Positions 41,342-51,866 of a stretch of DNA of 64,000 bases are shown here, in pieces (position 1 is the first letter of the stretch; the number at the start of each line of letters is the position of its first letter). The stretch is taken from contig NZ_ATVH01000016.1 of assembly GCF_000420625.1 (NCBI RefSeq), forward strand, positions 1 through 64,000. The letters are read 5' to 3'. The position numbers and the translations under genes are program-made. The notes under the pieces are model-generated. The model did not search any database, was not told the origin of the DNA, and saw only the letters and a program-made list of their open reading frames with translations. Origin of the DNA: Fodinicurvata sediminis DSM 21159. Lineage in GTDB: Bacteria; Pseudomonadota; Alphaproteobacteria; Kiloniellales; DSM-21159.

Positions 41342-41509
41342 TGTGACCTGCTGCCGCCCGGTGCGGATTGATCGTCCGAGATACAAGTTGGCGCCGGGAT
41401 TGGGACGGGGGAGCTGCTCCAGGACTCGGTGTTCGTCCCTGCTTCCCGAACATGCGGCAAGGCCGCTATACTGGACGCCCAGGCCGGATTCAGGGGTGTG
41501 CCGACGATC

Positions 41510-41962
41510 ATGGACTTCTCCATCCGCGAACTTTCAGGCGAGGATACTCACCTCTTTCGGGAGCTTCTCTCGATGTTCGGCGAGGTTTTCGAAGAGGTGG
41601 ATACCTACTCTGCGGCCCAGCCGGGAGAGGCCTATCTATGCGACCTGCTGAAGGGCGAGCAGCTTATCGCACTGGCTGCGGTGCAGGACGATCAGGTGGT
41701 CGGCGGGCTTGCGGCCTATGAACTGAAGAAGTTCGAGCGAGAACGCAGTGAGATCTATATCTACGATCTGGCTGTCGCGGCCGCCCATCGCCGCAAGGGT
41801 ATTGCCACGGCGCTGATCGATTGCGTGAAAGGGATCGCCTCGCGGCGCGGCGCCTATGTGGTCTTCGTGCAGGCCGAGCCGGGCGATGCAGCCGCAATCG
41901 CGCTTTACACGAAGCTGGGTAGGCGGGAGGACGTCCTGCATTTCGATATACCGATCGAGTGA
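41510..41962 (+). CDS. AAC(3)-I-type aminoglycoside 3-N-acetyltransferase (GNAT)
   Basis: 150-aa GNAT enzyme. The chain tracks AAC(3)-I enzymes almost end to end: FGEVFEEVDTYSAAQPGEAY, LIALAAVQDDQVVGGLAAYE, LKKFERERSEIYIYDLAVAA, HRRKGIATALI (acetyl-CoA pyrophosphate loop), GAYVVFVQAEPGD, AIALYTKLGRREDVLHFDI. Known members acetylate gentamicin-type aminoglycosides. No integron, IS or resistance-plasmid marker surrounds it, so it looks like a resident chromosomal gene whose activity is untested. Start 41510 matches family length; a frame from 41429 adds 27 non-conserved residues. Confidence 0.87.
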   Translation: MDFSIRELSGEDTHLFRELLSMFGEVFEEVDTYSAAQPGEAYLCDLLKGEQLIALAAVQDDQVVGGLAAYELKKFERERSEIYIYDLAVAAAHRRKGIATALIDCVKGIASRRGAYVVFVQAEPGDAAAIALYTKLGRREDVLHFDIPIE

Positions 41963-41992: not shown

Positions 41993-43171
41993 TTAGTCCT
42001 TGCCGTAGGTTAGGTAGAGGGTCTTCATGATCTCACCCGCGGCCAGGTTGGCCTGCTCGCCGCCGATGTTTGTGGCGACGACGATTGCCAGATCCTGGTC
42101 CCGGTCGATCAGGATCTTGGCCAGGTTCATGCTGTTGGAGCCATTGTGGGTGTGCAGCGGGCGTTCGGCCCAGTCGAACTGCTCGAAGCCCCAGCCGAGG
42201 GCATAGCCGCCTTCCTCGGGGATGCCGGGTGGGGGATCTGGAATTTTTGCCTGGACTTTGGGTTCCATGATGTAGGCCAGGGTTTCCGGTTCGACCAGAT
42301 CGGGTCCGCGCTCGGCCTGGCCGGCGATCCAGCCGCCCCAGCGTGCGAAGTCCAGGATGGACATGTGGGCCGTTCCGGCTGGTCCCATGATGGGCGGGAT
42401 ATCCGCCGCGGCGCCCCATAGCCTGGGTTCGGGCTGTCCGTCATCATCAGGAAAATGCCCGACCAGAGCATCGATCAATCCTGGTGTGGCGGTGGCGCCC
42501 AGGCCGGCCGTTTCCAGCTCGAGCGGCTGGAAGATCCGTTGCTGTATCAGGGCCTCCCAGGGCTGTCCCATGGCAGTCTCGAGCATGGTGCCGGCGATCA
42601 GATAGCCGAAATTGGCATACTGGAAGGGGGAGTTCTCTGGAATGACCGGTTCATTCTTCTTCCAGGCCTCCAGCGCCATCAATCGCAGATTCGTCAGGTT
42701 GTAGTCGAAGGCATCCGTATTGAAATAAATCTCGATCATTTCCTGCGTGTCGCTGGGGATGCCGCTGGAGTGTGAAAGCAGCTGTTCCAGGCGGACCTTG
42801 GCCAGGGTTTCGTTCATTCCCTGGACCTCGTCTCCCAGCACTTCACCGATGGTGCTGTCCCAGGCCAATCGGCCCTCCTCGACAGCCATGCCGGCAAGAA
42901 GGGCTGTCATGGCCTTGGTGTCGGAGCCGATGTGAATCTGATCCTGGAGCTCTGCCTTTGCATCATGCCCAATCGCTCTCACGCCGCTAGCCCCGGCCGC
43001 AACGATCTTCCCTTCATGGGCAACGGCGGCGACCAGCGCTGGCAGGGCAAATTCCTGGCGTACAGGCTCAAGTTGGTCCTTAAGGTTGTCGCGGGCGGCG
43101 GAATCATTCGCCATGAAGGTTATGAGGAGAAGGGCAAACGCAGGCAGCAGCGCCAACCGGAAGTGCAGCAT
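41993..43171 (-). CDS. Serine beta-lactamase-fold hydrolase (class C/ EstB-like)
   Basis: 392-aa exported protein with signal peptide (about 1-27). The active site motifs are SDTK in IHIGSDTKAMTALL (Ser-x-x-Lys), YAN in FQYANFGYLIAG, and HNG in LHTHNGSNSMN in place of KTG. This pattern is typical of penicillin-binding-protein-like esterases and peptidases rather than proven beta-lactamases. It converges on the acetyltransferase gene. The ribosome site at 43171 is weak. Confidence 0.87.
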   Translation of the reverse strand: MLHFRLALLPAFALLLITFMANDSAARDNLKDQLEPVRQEFALPALVAAVAHEGKIVAAGASGVRAIGHDAKAELQDQIHIGSDTKAMTALLAGMAVEEGRLAWDSTIGEVLGDEVQGMNETLAKVRLEQLLSHSSGIPSDTQEMIEIYFNTDAFDYNLTNLRLMALEAWKKNEPVIPENSPFQYANFGYLIAGTMLETAMGQPWEALIQQRIFQPLELETAGLGATATPGLIDALVGHFPDDDGQPEPRLWGAAADIPPIMGPAGTAHMSILDFARWGGWIAGQAERGPDLVEPETLAYIMEPKVQAKIPDPPPGIPEEGGYALGWGFEQFDWAERPLHTHNGSNSMNLAKILIDRDQDLAIVVATNIGGEQANLAAGEIMKTLYLTYGKD

Positions 43172-43367
43172 GATAGTTTCTTTCTTCTTGGTGGGATCAA
43201 ATCTTCCTGGTTGGGAATAGAGCGATAACAGCATCTGTCCAGCGCGAAGTATGCGCGGAAGTTTTTCGCTGTATCAAGTGCTTAGATCCGGCATGTCCCT
43301 TGCTCTTGCATGGGTTTGTCTCCGAACCGGTCGCGAGTCCAGTCGATTCTGCGTCCAGGTCTCCACC

Positions 43368-45131
43368 CTAGTCTGCCCAGCTGTTCCTGCGCAAAGCACT
43401 GGAGCCAGCGGCCCTGTCCTGACTTTCCTGTAGGTTCAGTCGATGGCGTTCGAGGGCTTTCTCCAGCGAGGGCTCATAGCGAACCAGAGGTGGTTTGAGT
43501 CCGTTCAGGAACAGCTCCTTGCGCAAGGGGCGGGTCGTACCGGTCAGGCTGACTCTTACCCCGCGGCGTTCAGCCTTCCGAGCCAGCCCCTCCAGTGTAT
43601 TGGCCGCCGTTGAATCCAGGAAGGGCACGGCCGAAAGGTCGATCACCAGTGCCTTGTGGGAATCGGAAATTCGCTCCAACATCGCGCCGACGGAGGCCGC
43701 CGCGCCAAAGAAGAACGCGCCTGAAATTCGGTAGACAACGATATCGGGGTTGGCGCCAGCCTGCTTGTCGTAGGGCTGGCGCTCGTTGCGTGGGCCATCC
43801 GCCTTGTCCTCGGCAACAAACGGGACGTGTCGGGCCACAGCGGTGGTTTTCGACATACGGTGAATGAACAGAATGGAGCCCAGTGCCACGCCTACGACTA
43901 TGGCCTCCGTCAGGTCACGGAAGATGGTCAGCAGGAAGGTCGCCAACAAAACCGCAGCGTCGCCGCGAGAGGCGCGCAGGAGGGTGGCAAAGGCCTGCTT
44001 CTCGATCATGTTCCAGGCGACAACAGCCAGCACCCCGGCAAGGCTTGCCAATGGAATATAGCTGGCAAGAGGGGCCACGAAGAGAATGAACAGCAAGAGG
44101 AAACCGGCATGCATCATGCCCGCGACGGGACCGTGAGCCCCGGCCCGGACATTGGTGGCTGTCCGCGCGATCGTCCCGGTCACACAGATCCCACCAAAGA
44201 GGCCGGAGGCCAGGTTCGCAGCACCTTGAGCCACCAGTTCGCAATTGGAGCGATGGCGCCGTCCGGTCATGCCGTCGGCCACCACGGCGGAAAGCAGCGA
44301 TTCGATGGCGCCCAGCAGGGTAAAGGCAAAGGCGCTGGGCAGCACCGCGCGCAGTTTGTCCCAGCCGATATCCGGCAGGTTTGGCCGAGGCAGGCTGCTC
44401 GGAATGCCGCCGAATTTCGTGCCGATGGTCTCGACCGGCAAGGTGAACAGGCCGGCGGCAAGAGAGGTCAGTACCACGGCGATCAACATTCCCGGCCAGT
44501 TGGGGCGCAGCTTCTTCAAGCCCACGATCAGGATGACGGTCGCCAGGGAAAGCACCAGCGTGGTCGTGTTGAAGTTTGGCAGCTTGTCCCAGAGGAAGGG
44601 CAGCTTTTCCAGCATGGGCCCGGGGGCCGTCCGCTCCGGATCAAGCCCCAGCAGTTCCTGTAGTTGGCTTGCGAAGATGATCACGGCAATGCCGGCCGTG
44701 AAGCCCACGGTGACAGGATAGGGAATGAACTTGATGTAGGTCCCAAGGCGCAGGAAACCCGTAAGCATCAGCATCAGGCCGGAAAGCATGGTGGCGAGAA
44801 GCAAGCCATCCATGCCATGGAGCTGGACAGTTGTGGCAACCAGCACGATGAAGGCGCCGGCCGGGCCTCCGATCTGGAAGCGGCTGCCGCCCAGGGCCGA
44901 TACCAGGAAGCCGCCAATTATGGCGGTATAAAGCCCCTGGGCTGGACTGGCGCCGGAGGCAATGGCAATGGCCATGGAGAGCGGCAGTGCAACAATCGCC
45001 ACGGTCAGGCCGGCCGTCATGTCCGAGCGCAGTTGTGTCAGTCCGTAACCTTCCCGCAGCACAGTGATCAGTTTCGGTGTGAAGAGCTCGAGAAAGCTGG
45101 TGGTGGAGGACGCGGATGTTTCTGATGTCAT
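43368..45131 (-). CDS. SulP-family anion permease with STAS domain
   Basis: 587-aa inner-membrane transporter for sulfate, bicarbonate or a related anion. The membrane domain has TAGLTVAIVALPLSMAIAIA, ASPAQGLYTAIIGGF, GGSRFQIGGPAGAFIV and GAIESLLSAVVADGMTG. The C-terminal STAS domain (about 455-565) includes VVYRISGAFFFGAA and VIDLSAVPFLDSTAANTLEG, with the phosphorylatable-type Ser/Thr after Asp. The start at 45131 is judged from the family; M at 45173 is possible. It lies downstream of a small XRE regulator on the same strand, probably co-transcribed. Confidence 0.9.
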   Translation of the reverse strand: MTSETSASSTTSFLELFTPKLITVLREGYGLTQLRSDMTAGLTVAIVALPLSMAIAIASGASPAQGLYTAIIGGFLVSALGGSRFQIGGPAGAFIVLVATTVQLHGMDGLLLATMLSGLMLMLTGFLRLGTYIKFIPYPVTVGFTAGIAVIIFASQLQELLGLDPERTAPGPMLEKLPFLWDKLPNFNTTTLVLSLATVILIVGLKKLRPNWPGMLIAVVLTSLAAGLFTLPVETIGTKFGGIPSSLPRPNLPDIGWDKLRAVLPSAFAFTLLGAIESLLSAVVADGMTGRRHRSNCELVAQGAANLASGLFGGICVTGTIARTATNVRAGAHGPVAGMMHAGFLLLFILFVAPLASYIPLASLAGVLAVVAWNMIEKQAFATLLRASRGDAAVLLATFLLTIFRDLTEAIVVGVALGSILFIHRMSKTTAVARHVPFVAEDKADGPRNERQPYDKQAGANPDIVVYRISGAFFFGAAASVGAMLERISDSHKALVIDLSAVPFLDSTAANTLEGLARKAERRGVRVSLTGTTRPLRKELFLNGLKPPLVRYEPSLEKALERHRLNLQESQDRAAGSSALRRNSWAD

Positions 45132-45222
45132 TCTGTCCGGCTGCCTTGTGAAAGGCGGCGGGATCGTCGGCATGGCTCGGCGGTCGCCGTCGCGGAGGTG
45201 GGGGTGTCGGGGTGGGGACTTT

Positions 45223-45489
45223 TCAGCTGCGCGTCGTTTCGACCGGGGATTTGAGGCGCACCCCACGTCCGCGGGCGTGGCTGGAGGCATTTTCACCAAT
45301 CAGTTCAATGCCGGCGAGATCCAGGGCCTCAACCACCCGGGTCAGGCTTTCCACCACGCCGCGGACATTGCCCTGGCTGGCCTCCATGCGCTGGATGGTG
45401 GGAAGTGAAACACCCGCCAAGTCGGCGAGTGTCCTCTGGTCAATGCCCAGGAGCGCCCTGGCCGCACGCATCTGTGCCGCAGTGATCAT
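45223..45489 (-). CDS. Small XRE-family transcriptional regulator
   Basis: 88-aa protein that is almost only an HTH: MITAAQMRAARALLGIDQRT, LADLAGVSLPTIQRMEASQG, followed by a short helix (LTRVVEALDLAGIELIGENA) and a basic tail. This small type is widespread next to SulP genes in alphaproteobacteria, as I recall. Start 45489 has AGGTGTGAGA upstream. It precedes sulP by 91 bp on the same strand and probably controls it. Confidence 0.87.
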   Translation of the reverse strand: MITAAQMRAARALLGIDQRTLADLAGVSLPTIQRMEASQGNVRGVVESLTRVVEALDLAGIELIGENASSHARGRGVRLKSPVETTRS

Positions 45490-47078: not shown

Positions 47079-48119
47079 GTGGAAGATACCGACAGAGACC
47101 AGAGCATGATTGGTAGTAAGCGAATCTCCGGGATCATCATCGTCTGTTTCCTGCTGGCTCAGTTTGTTTTTGCCGGCCTGACCCTGGCACAGGAGGGTCC
47201 GCTGGCCTCCTGGAACGAAGGGTCTGCCAAGTCCGCCATTCTTGAGTTCGTGGCCGAAACAACCAAGCCGGCTAGCCCGGACTACGTCGCCCCCGAGGAA
47301 CGGATCGCGGTATTCGACAACGACGGCACGCTCTGGTCCGAGAAACCCCTGTACTTCCAGGTGATGATGGCAATCGATCAGCTGCAGGCGATGGCGACAG
47401 AGACTCCCGAGTGGGCGGAAAACCAGCCATTCAAGGCAGCGCTGGAAGAGGATTTCGGGGCTGTTGCGGCCTCTGGCGGCAAGGGGCTCATGAAGCTGCT
47501 TAGCGCAACCCAGAGCGGATCAAGCGACAGGACCTTCACGCGCGAAGTCGAGGCCTGGCTCGACACAGCGCGTCATCCGCGTTTCGGAAAAACCTTCACC
47601 GAACTGGTCTACCAGCCCATGCTGGAGCTGCTCGATTACTTGAGGACGCATGGATTCAGCACCTGGATCGTTTCGGGCAGCGGCATCGATTTCATGCGCG
47701 CCTGGACAGAGGAGGCCTATGGCATTCCGCCCGAGCAGGTGATCGGCTCCCAAGTCGAACTCGACTATGTCATGGATGGCGGGACGCCCAGCTTCCAGCG
47801 CCGGCCCGGGAATTTCTTCTTCAACGACGGACCGAACAAGGCCATCGCCATCAAGCGCCATATGGGGCGCCAGCCTGTCATTGCCTTCGGAAATTCCGAT
47901 GGGGATCTGGAAATGCTCGAATGGACGACAGCGGGCGAAGGCCCGCGCCTCGGAGTGCTCATCCACCACACGGATGCGAAGCGTGAATGGGCTTATGATC
48001 GCAAGAGTGATATCGGACGGTTGGACAAGGCGCTGGACGCGGCCCCGGAGCATGATTGGCTCGTTGTCGACATGGCTGCGGACTGGGCGAGAATCTATCC
48101 CTGGCAGACGGCTCCATGA
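47079..48119 (+). CDS. Exported HAD-family phosphatase
   Basis: 346 aa, with an N-terminal membrane-targeting segment (GIIIVCFLLAQFVFAGLTLA, about 18-37) consistent with a signal peptide or anchor. HAD motif I is IAVFDNDGTLW, motif II IVSGSG, motif III has the Lys in NKAIAIKRH, and motif IV is FGNSDGDLEML, all intact. A cap domain lies between I and II. Relatives are phosphoserine-phosphatase-like exported phosphatases. GTG 47079 follows GGGGGGAT; ATG 47106 is an alternative. It overlaps the Hen1-like gene by 4 bp (ATGA). Confidence 0.85.
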   Translation: MEDTDRDQSMIGSKRISGIIIVCFLLAQFVFAGLTLAQEGPLASWNEGSAKSAILEFVAETTKPASPDYVAPEERIAVFDNDGTLWSEKPLYFQVMMAIDQLQAMATETPEWAENQPFKAALEEDFGAVAASGGKGLMKLLSATQSGSSDRTFTREVEAWLDTARHPRFGKTFTELVYQPMLELLDYLRTHGFSTWIVSGSGIDFMRAWTEEAYGIPPEQVIGSQVELDYVMDGGTPSFQRRPGNFFFNDGPNKAIAIKRHMGRQPVIAFGNSDGDLEMLEWTTAGEGPRLGVLIHHTDAKREWAYDRKSDIGRLDKALDAAPEHDWLVVDMAADWARIYPWQTAP

Positions 48120-48733
48120 CCACCTGGATCCATGAGCAGCGACTGTCCACGGTTTATCAGGCAGTTCTGGATAGCGAGGCGCGCACGGTGCTCGATCTTG
48201 GCTGTGGAGAGGGCGATCTGTTCCTGCGCCTGATGCATGCCCCCGGAGTGGAAAGGCTGGTGGGCGTTGACCTTTCTACCGAGGCCCTGGATTGTCTGCG
48301 CGCCAGATTGGCTGAACAGGAAAAGACACCCAGCGCACAGATCGAACTGATCCAGGCTTCGATGATTGAGCCCGGCCCGGGTCTTTCGGGTTTTGACTGT
48401 GCCGTTCTGTTGGAAACGCTGGAACATCTCGATCCCGGACGCTTGTCTATCCTGGAAACTGCGCTGTTCCACAAGATGCGTCCCGCAAGTGTGATCGTGA
48501 CGACACCCAATGCCGACTATAACGAGTTTCTGGGTGTCCCTTCCCATCGGTTCCGTCATCCCGATCACCGTTTCGAGTGGGGGCGGCGGAAATTCCGGAG
48601 TTGGGCCGAGGGGGTTGCGAAACGCAATGACTGCAGTGTTGTCACGCGCGATCTGGCCGGTGCGCATCCCTTCTATGGGGGCGTGAGCCAGATGGCCGTT
48701 TTTACCAAACAGAGTGAGGCGGCCGCGCGTTGA
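48116..48733 (+). CDS. Hen1-like 3'-terminal RNA 2'-O-methyltransferase domain, stand-alone
   Basis: 205-aa SAM methyltransferase. It opens HEQRLSTVY, then motif I VLDLGCGEGDLFLRL, VGVDLS, and the Hen1-specific metal site E100-x-x-E103-H104 in LETLEHLDPGRL, followed by VIVTTPNADYN and RHPDHRFEWGRRKF with further His ligands. This pattern is diagnostic of bacterial Hen1, which methylates the 2'-OH of 3' ends during RNA repair. The usual N-terminal Hen1 domain and the Pnkp partner gene are absent nearby. The start at 48116 overlaps the HAD stop. Function is inferred only from motifs. Confidence 0.8.
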   Translation: MTTWIHEQRLSTVYQAVLDSEARTVLDLGCGEGDLFLRLMHAPGVERLVGVDLSTEALDCLRARLAEQEKTPSAQIELIQASMIEPGPGLSGFDCAVLLETLEHLDPGRLSILETALFHKMRPASVIVTTPNADYNEFLGVPSHRFRHPDHRFEWGRRKFRSWAEGVAKRNDCSVVTRDLAGAHPFYGGVSQMAVFTKQSEAAAR

Positions 48734-48776: not shown

Positions 48777-49247
48777 TTACTGTGCCTGGGCGGTCTGGCT
48801 GGTCTTCAACTGTTCGAAGAGGTCTGCCATCTTCTGGCCGGCACGCCCGGGGTGCTTGACGTCCTCGGCCGCATCGGCGTTGGCCATGTCGTCGCCCACC
48901 TTGATGACGCCAACCATGCCCATGCCGTAGTGTGGCAGGCACTTGTAGCCATAAAGGCCTTCCTGGTCGAAGGTAACGGTGATCTCCTCGTTCATGGCAC
49001 CTTTCCATTCTTCGGCGCCTTCGGGCAGCATGCCGGGAATGATCTCCGCGTTGTGGTTCCTGTCGGTCAGCACGAAGGTCACGCTGTCGCCGGGCTCGAT
49101 CTCGAGATAGGCCGGCTCGAAGGCCATGGGCTGGCCGTCCGCGCCCTTGTTCAGCATCTCGACTTCGTAGTCGGCAGCCAGGGCTGTGCTCGCGAAAAGC
49201 AGGCCCGCTGCAAGTGCCAGGGAGAATGGAATGTTCAGTGCTTTCAT
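48777..49247 (-). CDS. paz: Pseudoazurin (type 1 copper protein)
   Basis: 156-aa periplasmic blue copper protein. The signal peptide is about residues 1-24 (FASTALA). Copper ligands are the His in LTDRNHNAEIIPG and Cys, His and Met in GYKCLPHYGMGMVG. Pseudoazurin passes electrons to copper nitrite reductase or cytochrome partners, and nirK lies 4 kb away. AAGGA precedes the start. A candidate NnrR-like site is 92 bp upstream. The C-terminal tail after residue 125 (ADAAEDVKHPGRAGQKM) is longer than the classical protein. Confidence 0.92.
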   Translation of the reverse strand: MKALNIPFSLALAAGLLFASTALAADYEVEMLNKGADGQPMAFEPAYLEIEPGDSVTFVLTDRNHNAEIIPGMLPEGAEEWKGAMNEEITVTFDQEGLYGYKCLPHYGMGMVGVIKVGDDMANADAAEDVKHPGRAGQKMADLFEQLKTSQTAQAQ

Positions 49248-49559
49248 CAGTCCGGTCCTTATTTCGGCTGTTGCGGTTGCCTGAATGCTCGGCAACCGCG
49301 TCATGCCTGCTCTTATAGGCGTGTTCGGGCTGAGCGACTTTGCGCTGGAACAAATTCATGGATTGAAAATACTGTTTATCGTTCATAGCCTTGCGAAATT
49401 CTTTGCGAGAGCACCAACGGCTTCCTGCAGTTAATTTTGTTTATGCTGCACCGACGGAGTTGCATTGGTGCAAACGATAATCCCGAGGGGGTGGCCAGGA
49501 CGGCGCTGGAAGAGGGCGCAGGGTAGGAAAAGCCCGCTCGGACCGGTGAGGGGATTGTC
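49248..49559. promoter_or_regulatory. Divergent promoter region of pseudoazurin and qNor with two Crp/Fnr-type sites
   Basis: Two sites are seen in the 312-bp gap. TTTGCGCTGGAACAAA (49339-49354) lies 92 bp from the pseudoazurin start; its right half GGAACAAA equals that of the nirK site. TTGCATTGGTGCAA (49460-49473, perfect TTGCA-N4-TGCAA) lies 87 bp from the qNor start. The TTGNN-N4-NNCAA layout is that of Crp/Fnr-family NO regulators (NnrR/Dnr). Another TTGCGA direct repeat is at about 49391-49407, which may be accidental. Confidence 0.72.
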
Positions 49560-51866
49560 ATGACCAATACGAAACAACTCTGGATCTTTCTGGCTGTCCT
49601 GCTTGGGGTTTCCTTTGCGGTACTTCTCTGGAGCGGCAACCAGATCTACCAGGCAGCACCTCCGGTCCCCGAGGAAGTGGTCACCACCGAAGGGGAAACC
49701 GTCTATACGCGTGCGGACATCGAGAAGGGCCGCCGGGTCTGGCAATCCATGGGCGGCATGCAGTTGGGCTCGATCTGGGGGCACGGTGGCTATGTGGCTC
49801 CGGACTGGAGTGCCGACTGGCTGCACCGTGAACTTATGTTCCTGCTCGATCGCTGGGCTCAGGAGGAATACGACACCGCTGGCTACGAGGAGTCGAGCAA
49901 CCAGCAGAAGGCGGCTCTGCGTGGCCGGCTGACCGCACAGATGCGCGAGAACACCTACGATCCCGAAAGCGGCACGATCACGATCAGTCAGGATCGTGCC
50001 GAGGCGATCGAAGCGGTTTCCGCGCACTACGAGAGTCTGTTCGGCAACGATCCGGAAACGGCGGACCTGCGCGAAGCCTACGCGATGAAGAACGACACGG
50101 TGCCGGATCCGGAAAATCGGCAGGTGATGTCGGCCTTCTTCTGGTGGTCCGCCTGGTCAGCGGCCACGGAGCGGCCAAACGACTCGATTACCTATACCAA
50201 CAACTGGCCGAGCGAGCCGCTGATCGAGAACCGGCCGCCCTCAAGCACCTTCCTGTGGTCCGCCTTCAGCGTGATTTTCCTGCTGGGAGGAATAGCCCTG
50301 CTGGGCTGGCACTATGCCGTAAGCCATTCCCGGGAAGAGGAGCCGCACCGCCTACCGGAATTCGATCCCATGCGGCATCTCAAGCCCACGCCCTCCATGA
50401 TGGCGACGGCGAAATACTTCTGGGTCCTGCTGGCCCTGTTCCTGCTGCAGATCCTGCTGGGCGCGATCACGGCCCACTACCAGGTCGAGGGCCAGGTGAT
50501 GTACGGCTTCGAACTGGCCGAGATTCTACCCTATTCAATCACCCGGACCTGGCATACACAGCTGGCAGTGCTGTGGATCGCACTGGCTTGGCTGGGCACC
50601 GGTCTCTACATCGCACCGGCGGTCTCGAATTATGAACCGCCCTACCAGCGCCTGGGTGTCAATCTTCTCTGGCTCTGCCTGCTGATTATCGTGGTGGGTG
50701 CCTTTGTCGGCCAGTGGCTGGCTGTGATGCAGGAACTGGGGCTGGAGAACAATTTCTATTTCGGTCACCAGGGCTGGGAGTACGCCGACATCGGCCGTTT
50801 CTGGCAATACTTCCTGTTCATCGGTCTGCTTCTCTGGTTGTTCCTGGTGGGCCGGGCGCTCTGGCCCACGCTGACCGGCAATTCGGAATCACGCTCTATC
50901 GTCGGCCTGCTGTTCCTGTCGACAGTGGCCATTGGCCTCTTCTTCGGGGCCGCCCTGATGTGGGGCGAGAACACCCACCTCTCCATTGTCGAGTACTGGC
51001 GCTGGTGGCTGGTTCACCTCTGGGTCGAGGGCTTCTTCGAGGTCTTTGCCACCGCAGTGATTGCCTTCCTCTTCACGCGTCTCGGCCTTTTGCCCGTGAG
51101 GACGGCGACCGTGGCGGTCCTGTTCGCCACCATCATCTTCATGGCCGGTGGCGTGCTGGGCACACTGCATCACCTCTACTTCGCCGGTTCGCCGACGCCG
51201 GTACTGGCACTTGGTGCCAGCTTCTCCGCCCTGGAGGTGGTGCCGTTGGCCTATGTCGGTTTCGAGGCCTATCACCACTACCGATTGGGCGTGGCGACCC
51301 GTTGGATGCAACGCTATCGTTGGCCGGTCATGTTCTTCTTGGCGGTGGCCTTCTGGAATCTTGTGGGCGCCGGGCTGTTCGGTTTCCTGATCAATCCGCC
51401 GCTTTCGCTGTATTACATGCAGGGCCTGAATCTGACGCCGCTGCATGGGCATACGGCCCTGTTCGGGGTCTACGGCATGCTGGGCATTGGGTTGGTACTG
51501 TTCTGCCTGCGCGGAATAAAGCCCAATCTTGCCTGGCCGGAAGGCACTCTCAAGGTCAGCTTCTGGTGCCTCAACATCGGACTGGCCCTGATGGCCTTGC
51601 TGACCCTGCTGCCGCTGGGTGTCATGCAGCTGTTTGCATCTCTCGAGCACGGCTATTGGTACGCCCGTTCGGCCGAGTTCATGCAGCAGCCCATCGTCGA
51701 CTTGCTGGTCTGGCTGCGAGTTCCAGGGGATACGATCTTTTCCATCGGTGCCCTGGCGCTGGCGTACTTCGTCATCCGGCTATGGGTGTTTCCGCGCCGC
51801 GAGGACGAACAGCCTGTCGAGCAGGGTGAAGGCGCTTATGCCGGGTCAACGGGGTATCGCCGTTGA
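49560..51866 (+). CDS. norZ: Quinol-dependent nitric oxide reductase (qNor)
   Basis: 768-aa membrane enzyme reducing 2 NO to N2O with electrons from quinol. A fused N-terminal extension (about 1-230) with a first helix, RRVWQSMGGMQLGSIWGHGG and FFWWSAWSA precedes the 12-helix NorB core. Haem and iron ligands are the His in TRTWHTQLAVLWIA, LVHLWVEGFFEV (His with conserved Glu), TLHHLYF (His-His) and LHGHTALFG (His-x-His). The soluble extension replaces NorC, as no norC gene follows. Start 49560 has GAGGGG upstream. It is followed by sirB2 at 38 bp. Confidence 0.95.
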   Translation: MTNTKQLWIFLAVLLGVSFAVLLWSGNQIYQAAPPVPEEVVTTEGETVYTRADIEKGRRVWQSMGGMQLGSIWGHGGYVAPDWSADWLHRELMFLLDRWAQEEYDTAGYEESSNQQKAALRGRLTAQMRENTYDPESGTITISQDRAEAIEAVSAHYESLFGNDPETADLREAYAMKNDTVPDPENRQVMSAFFWWSAWSAATERPNDSITYTNNWPSEPLIENRPPSSTFLWSAFSVIFLLGGIALLGWHYAVSHSREEEPHRLPEFDPMRHLKPTPSMMATAKYFWVLLALFLLQILLGAITAHYQVEGQVMYGFELAEILPYSITRTWHTQLAVLWIALAWLGTGLYIAPAVSNYEPPYQRLGVNLLWLCLLIIVVGAFVGQWLAVMQELGLENNFYFGHQGWEYADIGRFWQYFLFIGLLLWLFLVGRALWPTLTGNSESRSIVGLLFLSTVAIGLFFGAALMWGENTHLSIVEYWRWWLVHLWVEGFFEVFATAVIAFLFTRLGLLPVRTATVAVLFATIIFMAGGVLGTLHHLYFAGSPTPVLALGASFSALEVVPLAYVGFEAYHHYRLGVATRWMQRYRWPVMFFLAVAFWNLVGAGLFGFLINPPLSLYYMQGLNLTPLHGHTALFGVYGMLGIGLVLFCLRGIKPNLAWPEGTLKVSFWCLNIGLALMALLTLLPLGVMQLFASLEHGYWYARSAEFMQQPIVDLLVWLRVPGDTIFSIGALALAYFVIRLWVFPRREDEQPVEQGEGAYAGSTGYRR

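Follow-up and report, generated by a model that had tools for sequence, protein, structure and literature searches.

The window, that is the whole 64,000-nucleotide stretch of Fodinicurvata sediminis DNA that was analysed, is located on contig C16 of a 3.69 Mb genome that is 100% complete. It contains a forward-strand gene (ATG 48116 to TGA 48733) for a predicted 205-residue stand-alone methyltransferase domain of Hen1, the enzyme that methylates the very end of RNA chains; the assignment is based on TIGR04074, PDB matches, fold and alignment. TTG 48056 gives only the longest possible reading of this gene; most relatives start at the M-T-[ST] position, and most stand-alone Hen1 proteins share a conserved M-T-[ST]-x-x-H-E-x-R-L N-terminus. 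The match to the TIGR04074 (bacter_Hen1) profile, at 203.8 bits, is below the family cut-off of 340 bits and is confined to positions 265-462 of 462, which agrees with the original prediction that only the methyltransferase domain is present; no ligase-activating N-terminal domain was found in the 205 residues. The SAM motif is DLGCG (residues 27-31), the metal ligands are E100, E103, H104 and H151, as assigned in plant and human Hen1 (PMC10781085), and the HRFEW motif is also present. In the PDB, its top sequence matches all come from Hen1 domains (E down to 5e-39), and the AlphaFold model (pLDDT 94.9) was matched to the canonical Hen1 domains of bacteria, plants and humans with Z of 24-28, to the divergent Hen1 of 4xrp and 4xru with Z of 18-19, and to the best non-Hen1 fold with Z of 18.4. 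The protein is 80% identical to that of the nearest named relative, Fodinicurvata fenggangensis, with the same value in a congeneric genome, and dN/dS between the two Fodinicurvata (0.12/0.90) indicates purifying selection rather than a chance open reading frame. Sequence, predicted fold and phylogenetic tree agree in predicting that 48116-48733 encodes a complete Hen1 catalytic domain.

Immediately upstream on the same strand is an open reading frame (47079-48119) for a HAD hydrolase, with a Pfam HAD match and intact DxD and DGD motifs; the solved hydrolase PDB 4ovy is a close relative (347 bits). Translation probably begins at ATG 47106 (residue 10) rather than at the listed GTG 47079, because the F. 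fenggangensis orthologue has its first residue at the equivalent position; the gene is then shorter than the listed open reading frame. HAD and Hen1 overlap by 4 bp (ATGA, 48116-48119) where the one gene ends and the other begins, as originally predicted, and this overlap is kept in both Fodinicurvata species, where a block that runs from a SulP gene through HAD and Hen1 to pseudoazurin is syntenic at approximately 80% nucleotide identity. The HAD protein is probably exported, as had also been proposed, judging by eye from a hydrophobic N-terminus that resembles a signal peptide. Other genes of the window include an AAC(3)-I aminoglycoside N-acetyltransferase (41429-41962, forward strand; 222 bits versus the NCBIfam cut-off of 200), a gene of resistance type on the chromosome of an environmental bacterium, and a gene for a probably secreted serine beta-lactamase/esterase-like protein (41993-43234, reverse strand) with class C-like motifs recognized by eye, for which there was no NCBIfam match at 1e-12. 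On the other side of Hen1, pseudoazurin (48777-49304, reverse strand; TIGR02375) and a 768-residue protein that was identified by eye as a quinol-type nitric oxide reductase (49560-51866, forward strand) may form a denitrification patch directly downstream.

The Hen1 domain was aligned with its relatives and a phylogenetic tree was built from 109 sequences, comprising 82 stand-alone and 27 full-length domains. The metal ligands E100, E103, H104 and H151 are invariant in 82/82 stand-alone and 27/27 full-length proteins, in keeping with the original observation of intact E100/E103/H104 and HRFEW, and the TPN motif, N136 and FEW are likewise invariant in all 109. One branch (SH-aLRT 99) parts stand-alone from full-length Hen1 with a single change of state; the tree being unrooted and a few of its deep stand-alone rows weakly placed, this is a clean split, not necessarily a strict clade. 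Six deep stand-alone rows, from Thiobacillus/Hydrogenophilales, Desulfuromonadales, Bryobacteraceae and a Comamonas plasmid, lie close to the full-length branch but are poorly supported there, so that the rooting of the stand-alone group is tentative. In 93-100% of full-length Hen1, positions 85, 87 and 89 hold Y, D and R as part of a Y-R-D-x-R motif, whereas stand-alone proteins mostly have other residues there; the two groups also differ by V101 -> T and E159 -> R/K, and none of these five positions is a metal ligand. With Y-R-D-x-R mostly lost, the substrate or the partner of stand-alone Hen1 could differ from that of full-length Hen1. Apparently, stand-alone Hen1 is a branch of bacterial Hen1 without earlier description: none was found in the open-licence literature, where an earlier mention is nevertheless possible.

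The genomic context of the two groups differs also. Pnkp was found above its family cut-off in 0 of 11 genomes with stand-alone Hen1 versus 5 of 5 genomes with full-length Hen1. The search for pnkp and RNA ligase genes that had been suggested along with the original prediction was carried out on the F. sediminis genome: the best Pnkp match was 41 bits versus a cut-off of 750, and RNA_ligase (PF09414) had no match. The two Hen1 repair systems described so far both rely on the N-terminal domain of Hen1 to activate the ligase (PMC4411300). Gene and domain content predict that the stand-alone lineage is Pnkp-independent, having lost both the ligase-activating N-terminal domain and the repair context.

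In place of Pnkp, operon structure and co-occurrence predict that the conserved partner of stand-alone Hen1 is a zinc-ribbon class I methyltransferase (ZMT) with two CxxC pairs and a Methyltransf_23 domain, often together with a spermidine-synthase-like protein. ZMT is encoded in 31 of 67 stand-alone Hen1 loci; in 30 it adjoins Hen1 with the same orientation, and in 26 its stop codon overlaps the Hen1 start by exactly 4 bp. The spermidine-synthase-like gene is present in 22 of the 67, which were found by similarity to the F. sediminis Hen1 with heuristic gene calls and are enriched in Rhodobacteraceae, so that these counts are not fully independent. None of 13 full-length loci contains ZMT. 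The adjacency extends to Chromatiaceae (L104, in reversed order) and to Bryobacteraceae of the Acidobacteriota (L093). Across 387 evenly sampled alphaproteobacterial genomes, 8 encode stand-alone Hen1 and 17 encode ZMT, including 8/8 of those with stand-alone Hen1 (Fisher P ~2e-12 with genomes treated as independent; P ~8e-7 when counted by family, on the assumption of 165 families in all). Overall, ZMT was found in 12 of 15 genomes with stand-alone Hen1 (undetected in 3), 0 of 8 with full-length Hen1 and 5 of 68 background genomes, the genomes in these co-occurrence counts being mutually related. F. sediminis itself has a ZMT gene (C16:87997-88647; 66% identity to the query) that lies outside the window, which is why it was invisible to the original prediction; together with neighbouring genes for UppP (C16:87185-88000) and a spermidine-synthase-like protein (C16:86331-87053), it is located approximately 39 kb downstream of Hen1. 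A TGA that was flagged inside this ZMT gene is merely its stop codon. Where ZMT occurs without Hen1, it was seen by eye to adjoin a RecQ-like helicase in two alphaproteobacteria of different families (L169, L174).

A systematic scan of the neighbours of stand-alone Hen1 identified no common biosynthetic cluster; the only other recurrent genes, besides ZMT and the spermidine-synthase-like gene, are those for MFS, universal stress protein (Usp) and SulP. Within approximately 6 kb of Hen1, 10 of 67 loci (L033, L035, L036, L038, L045, L050, L058, L067, L078, L082) encode a SulP anion transporter, in most cases accompanied by a universal stress protein, and SulP is also found near Hen1 on a Comamonas plasmid (L203); the SulP gene of the window (43368-45299) belongs to a different subfamily. 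Arsenic and mercury resistance islands were considered and rejected, the scan having shown no general enrichment: there is an ACR3 match above cut-off in L069, MerT (L045) and ArsD (L088) are below curated cut-offs, and what had been taken for an arsenic cluster in L087 proved to encode a histidine kinase together with a phosphonate-binding protein. RES-domain (toxin-type) genes made up 3 of 104 neighbour proteins scanned (loci L062-L104, alignment A5), and L083:263-1000 matches a RES toxin weakly. A gene for peptide chain release factor 3 (RF3) lies near Hen1 in two Chromatiaceae loci (L074:1253-2830, L104:4307-5884) and on the Comamonas plasmid (L203:13840-15447), where TraR/DksA and cfa adjoin too; a related RF3 open reading frame was clustered in L092. 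This plasmid, NZ_CP101744 of Comamonas sp. C11, carries its stand-alone Hen1 amid IS3 transposases and an integrase, which suggests that the gene is capable of horizontal movement.

The reading favoured here, with a probability of about 0.55, is that Hen1 of F. sediminis belongs to a Pnkp-independent lineage that carries out metal-dependent 2'-O-methylation of RNA 3' ends, its putative substrate, outside ligase-based repair. The unchanged active site favours an acceptor with a ribose 2',3'-diol, most simply the 3' end of RNA. The enzyme would bind SAM and a Mn2+ or Mg2+ ion held by E100, E103, H104 and H151; the metal would grip the 2',3'-diol of the 3'-terminal ribose, and the 2'-OH would be methylated. 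The target would be an RNA that does not go on to ligation by Pnkp, and the 2'-O-methyl mark might protect or terminate the 3' end or stop its further processing, while ZMT may modify the same substrate or work in the same pathway. A broader proposal, put forward tentatively, is that Hen1 and ZMT, often with the spermidine-synthase-like protein, constitute an undescribed and widespread repair-independent pathway of RNA 3'-end modification in Alphaproteobacteria, Gammaproteobacteria and Acidobacteriota.

Alternatively, this could be a Hen1-derived enzyme whose acceptor is a nucleotide or small molecule bearing a ribose 2',3'-diol, and which would catalyse one step of a small pathway shared with ZMT and the spermidine-synthase-like protein. 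This is judged rather unlikely, but it stays a real rival because the closest solved folds to ZMT are those of the sugar C3'-methyltransferases TcaB9, KijD1 and MtmC rather than of RNA enzymes; that the linked genes encode another methyltransferase or aminopropyltransferase-like proteins, that MFS, SulP and universal stress genes recur nearby, and that Y-R-D-x-R of canonical Hen1 is mostly lost would also fit such a pathway. Against it, all 82 stand-alone proteins retain the metal site and core motifs of Hen1 without change, and no consistent biosynthetic cluster extends past ZMT and the spermidine-synthase-like gene. The presence of RF3/prfC near the Chromatiaceae and Comamonas plasmid genes hints at a translation or RNA setting instead, although this is not enough to argue from.

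It is distinctly improbable that stand-alone Hen1 serves a trimmed form of RNA repair, in which it would mark broken RNA that an unlinked kinase, phosphatase or ligase then seals. In favour of such an arrangement, the Pnkp1-Rnl-Hen1 system likewise has its Hen1 gene at a distance from those of the repair partners (PMC4411300), but stand-alone Hen1 does not have the ligase-activating domain common to both known systems, Pnkp is missing from 11/11 of the genomes and PF09414 was not found in that of F. sediminis; furthermore, in structure it is closer to canonical Hen1 than to the Hen1 of 4xrp and 4xru.

The overlap with the HAD gene had been regarded as a functional clue, which the survey of related loci did not sustain. 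Conservation of the HAD-Hen1 pair, a question raised together with that prediction, was seen in 1 of 67 related loci, that of the other Fodinicurvata, and the remaining 66 do not have it. The HAD family is common without Hen1: its homologues are present in 217 plasmid records, versus 18 with any Hen1 in the same collection, and in two contexts examined they adjoin arylsulfatase or MoxR/VWA genes. HAD was rejected as a general functional partner, and it is probably a Fodinicurvata-specific operon neighbour of Hen1 that is coupled to it for expression only; as ZMT is located elsewhere in F. sediminis, HAD fills in Fodinicurvata the slot beside Hen1 that is held by ZMT in other loci. That HAD and Hen1 work together as two enzymes of one unit, the phosphatase readying an end or product that Hen1 then methylates, is highly improbable despite the intact catalytic motifs of HAD and the shared 4-bp overlap in both species, because the pair is so restricted and because direct sharing of a substrate is not expected between a HAD protein that looks exported and a Hen1 without an export signal.

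The known role of bacterial Hen1 is in RNA repair, where it activates a ligase and works with it. A lineage with the whole active site, but without the ligase-activating domain and without Pnkp, would mean that terminal 2'-O-methylation is used beyond the sealing of breaks. The stand-alone architecture is closer to the small-RNA enzymes of animals, and the lineage may bear on the origin of the small-RNA Hen1 of eukaryotes; should it turn out to act on a small molecule, Hen1 would have been put to a new use. ZMT offers an experimental handle in the form of a two-gene operon with Hen1.

Among known systems, the bacterial Hen1 structures 3jwg-3jwj have the same catalytic fold as stand-alone Hen1, approximately 36% identity, the metal ligands and the RH-x-DHRFEW motif, whereas stand-alone Hen1 is on a separate branch, is linked to ZMT, has mostly lost Y-R-D-x-R, and has neither the N-terminal ligase-activating domain nor Pnkp in the genome. 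Hen1 of the Pnkp1-Rnl-Hen1 system (4xrp, 4xru) has the same methyltransferase fold and is likewise not encoded beside Pnkp, but it keeps the ligase-activating domain and is only 18-20% identical to stand-alone Hen1, with Z of 18-19 compared to 26-28 for canonical bacterial Hen1. Animal HENMT1 (4xcx, 5wy0), which acts on piRNAs in an Argonaute pathway, has the Hen1 catalytic domain and metal ligands in common with stand-alone Hen1, and plant HEN1 (3htx), which carries large additional RNA-binding domains, shares with it the catalytic domain and metal site.
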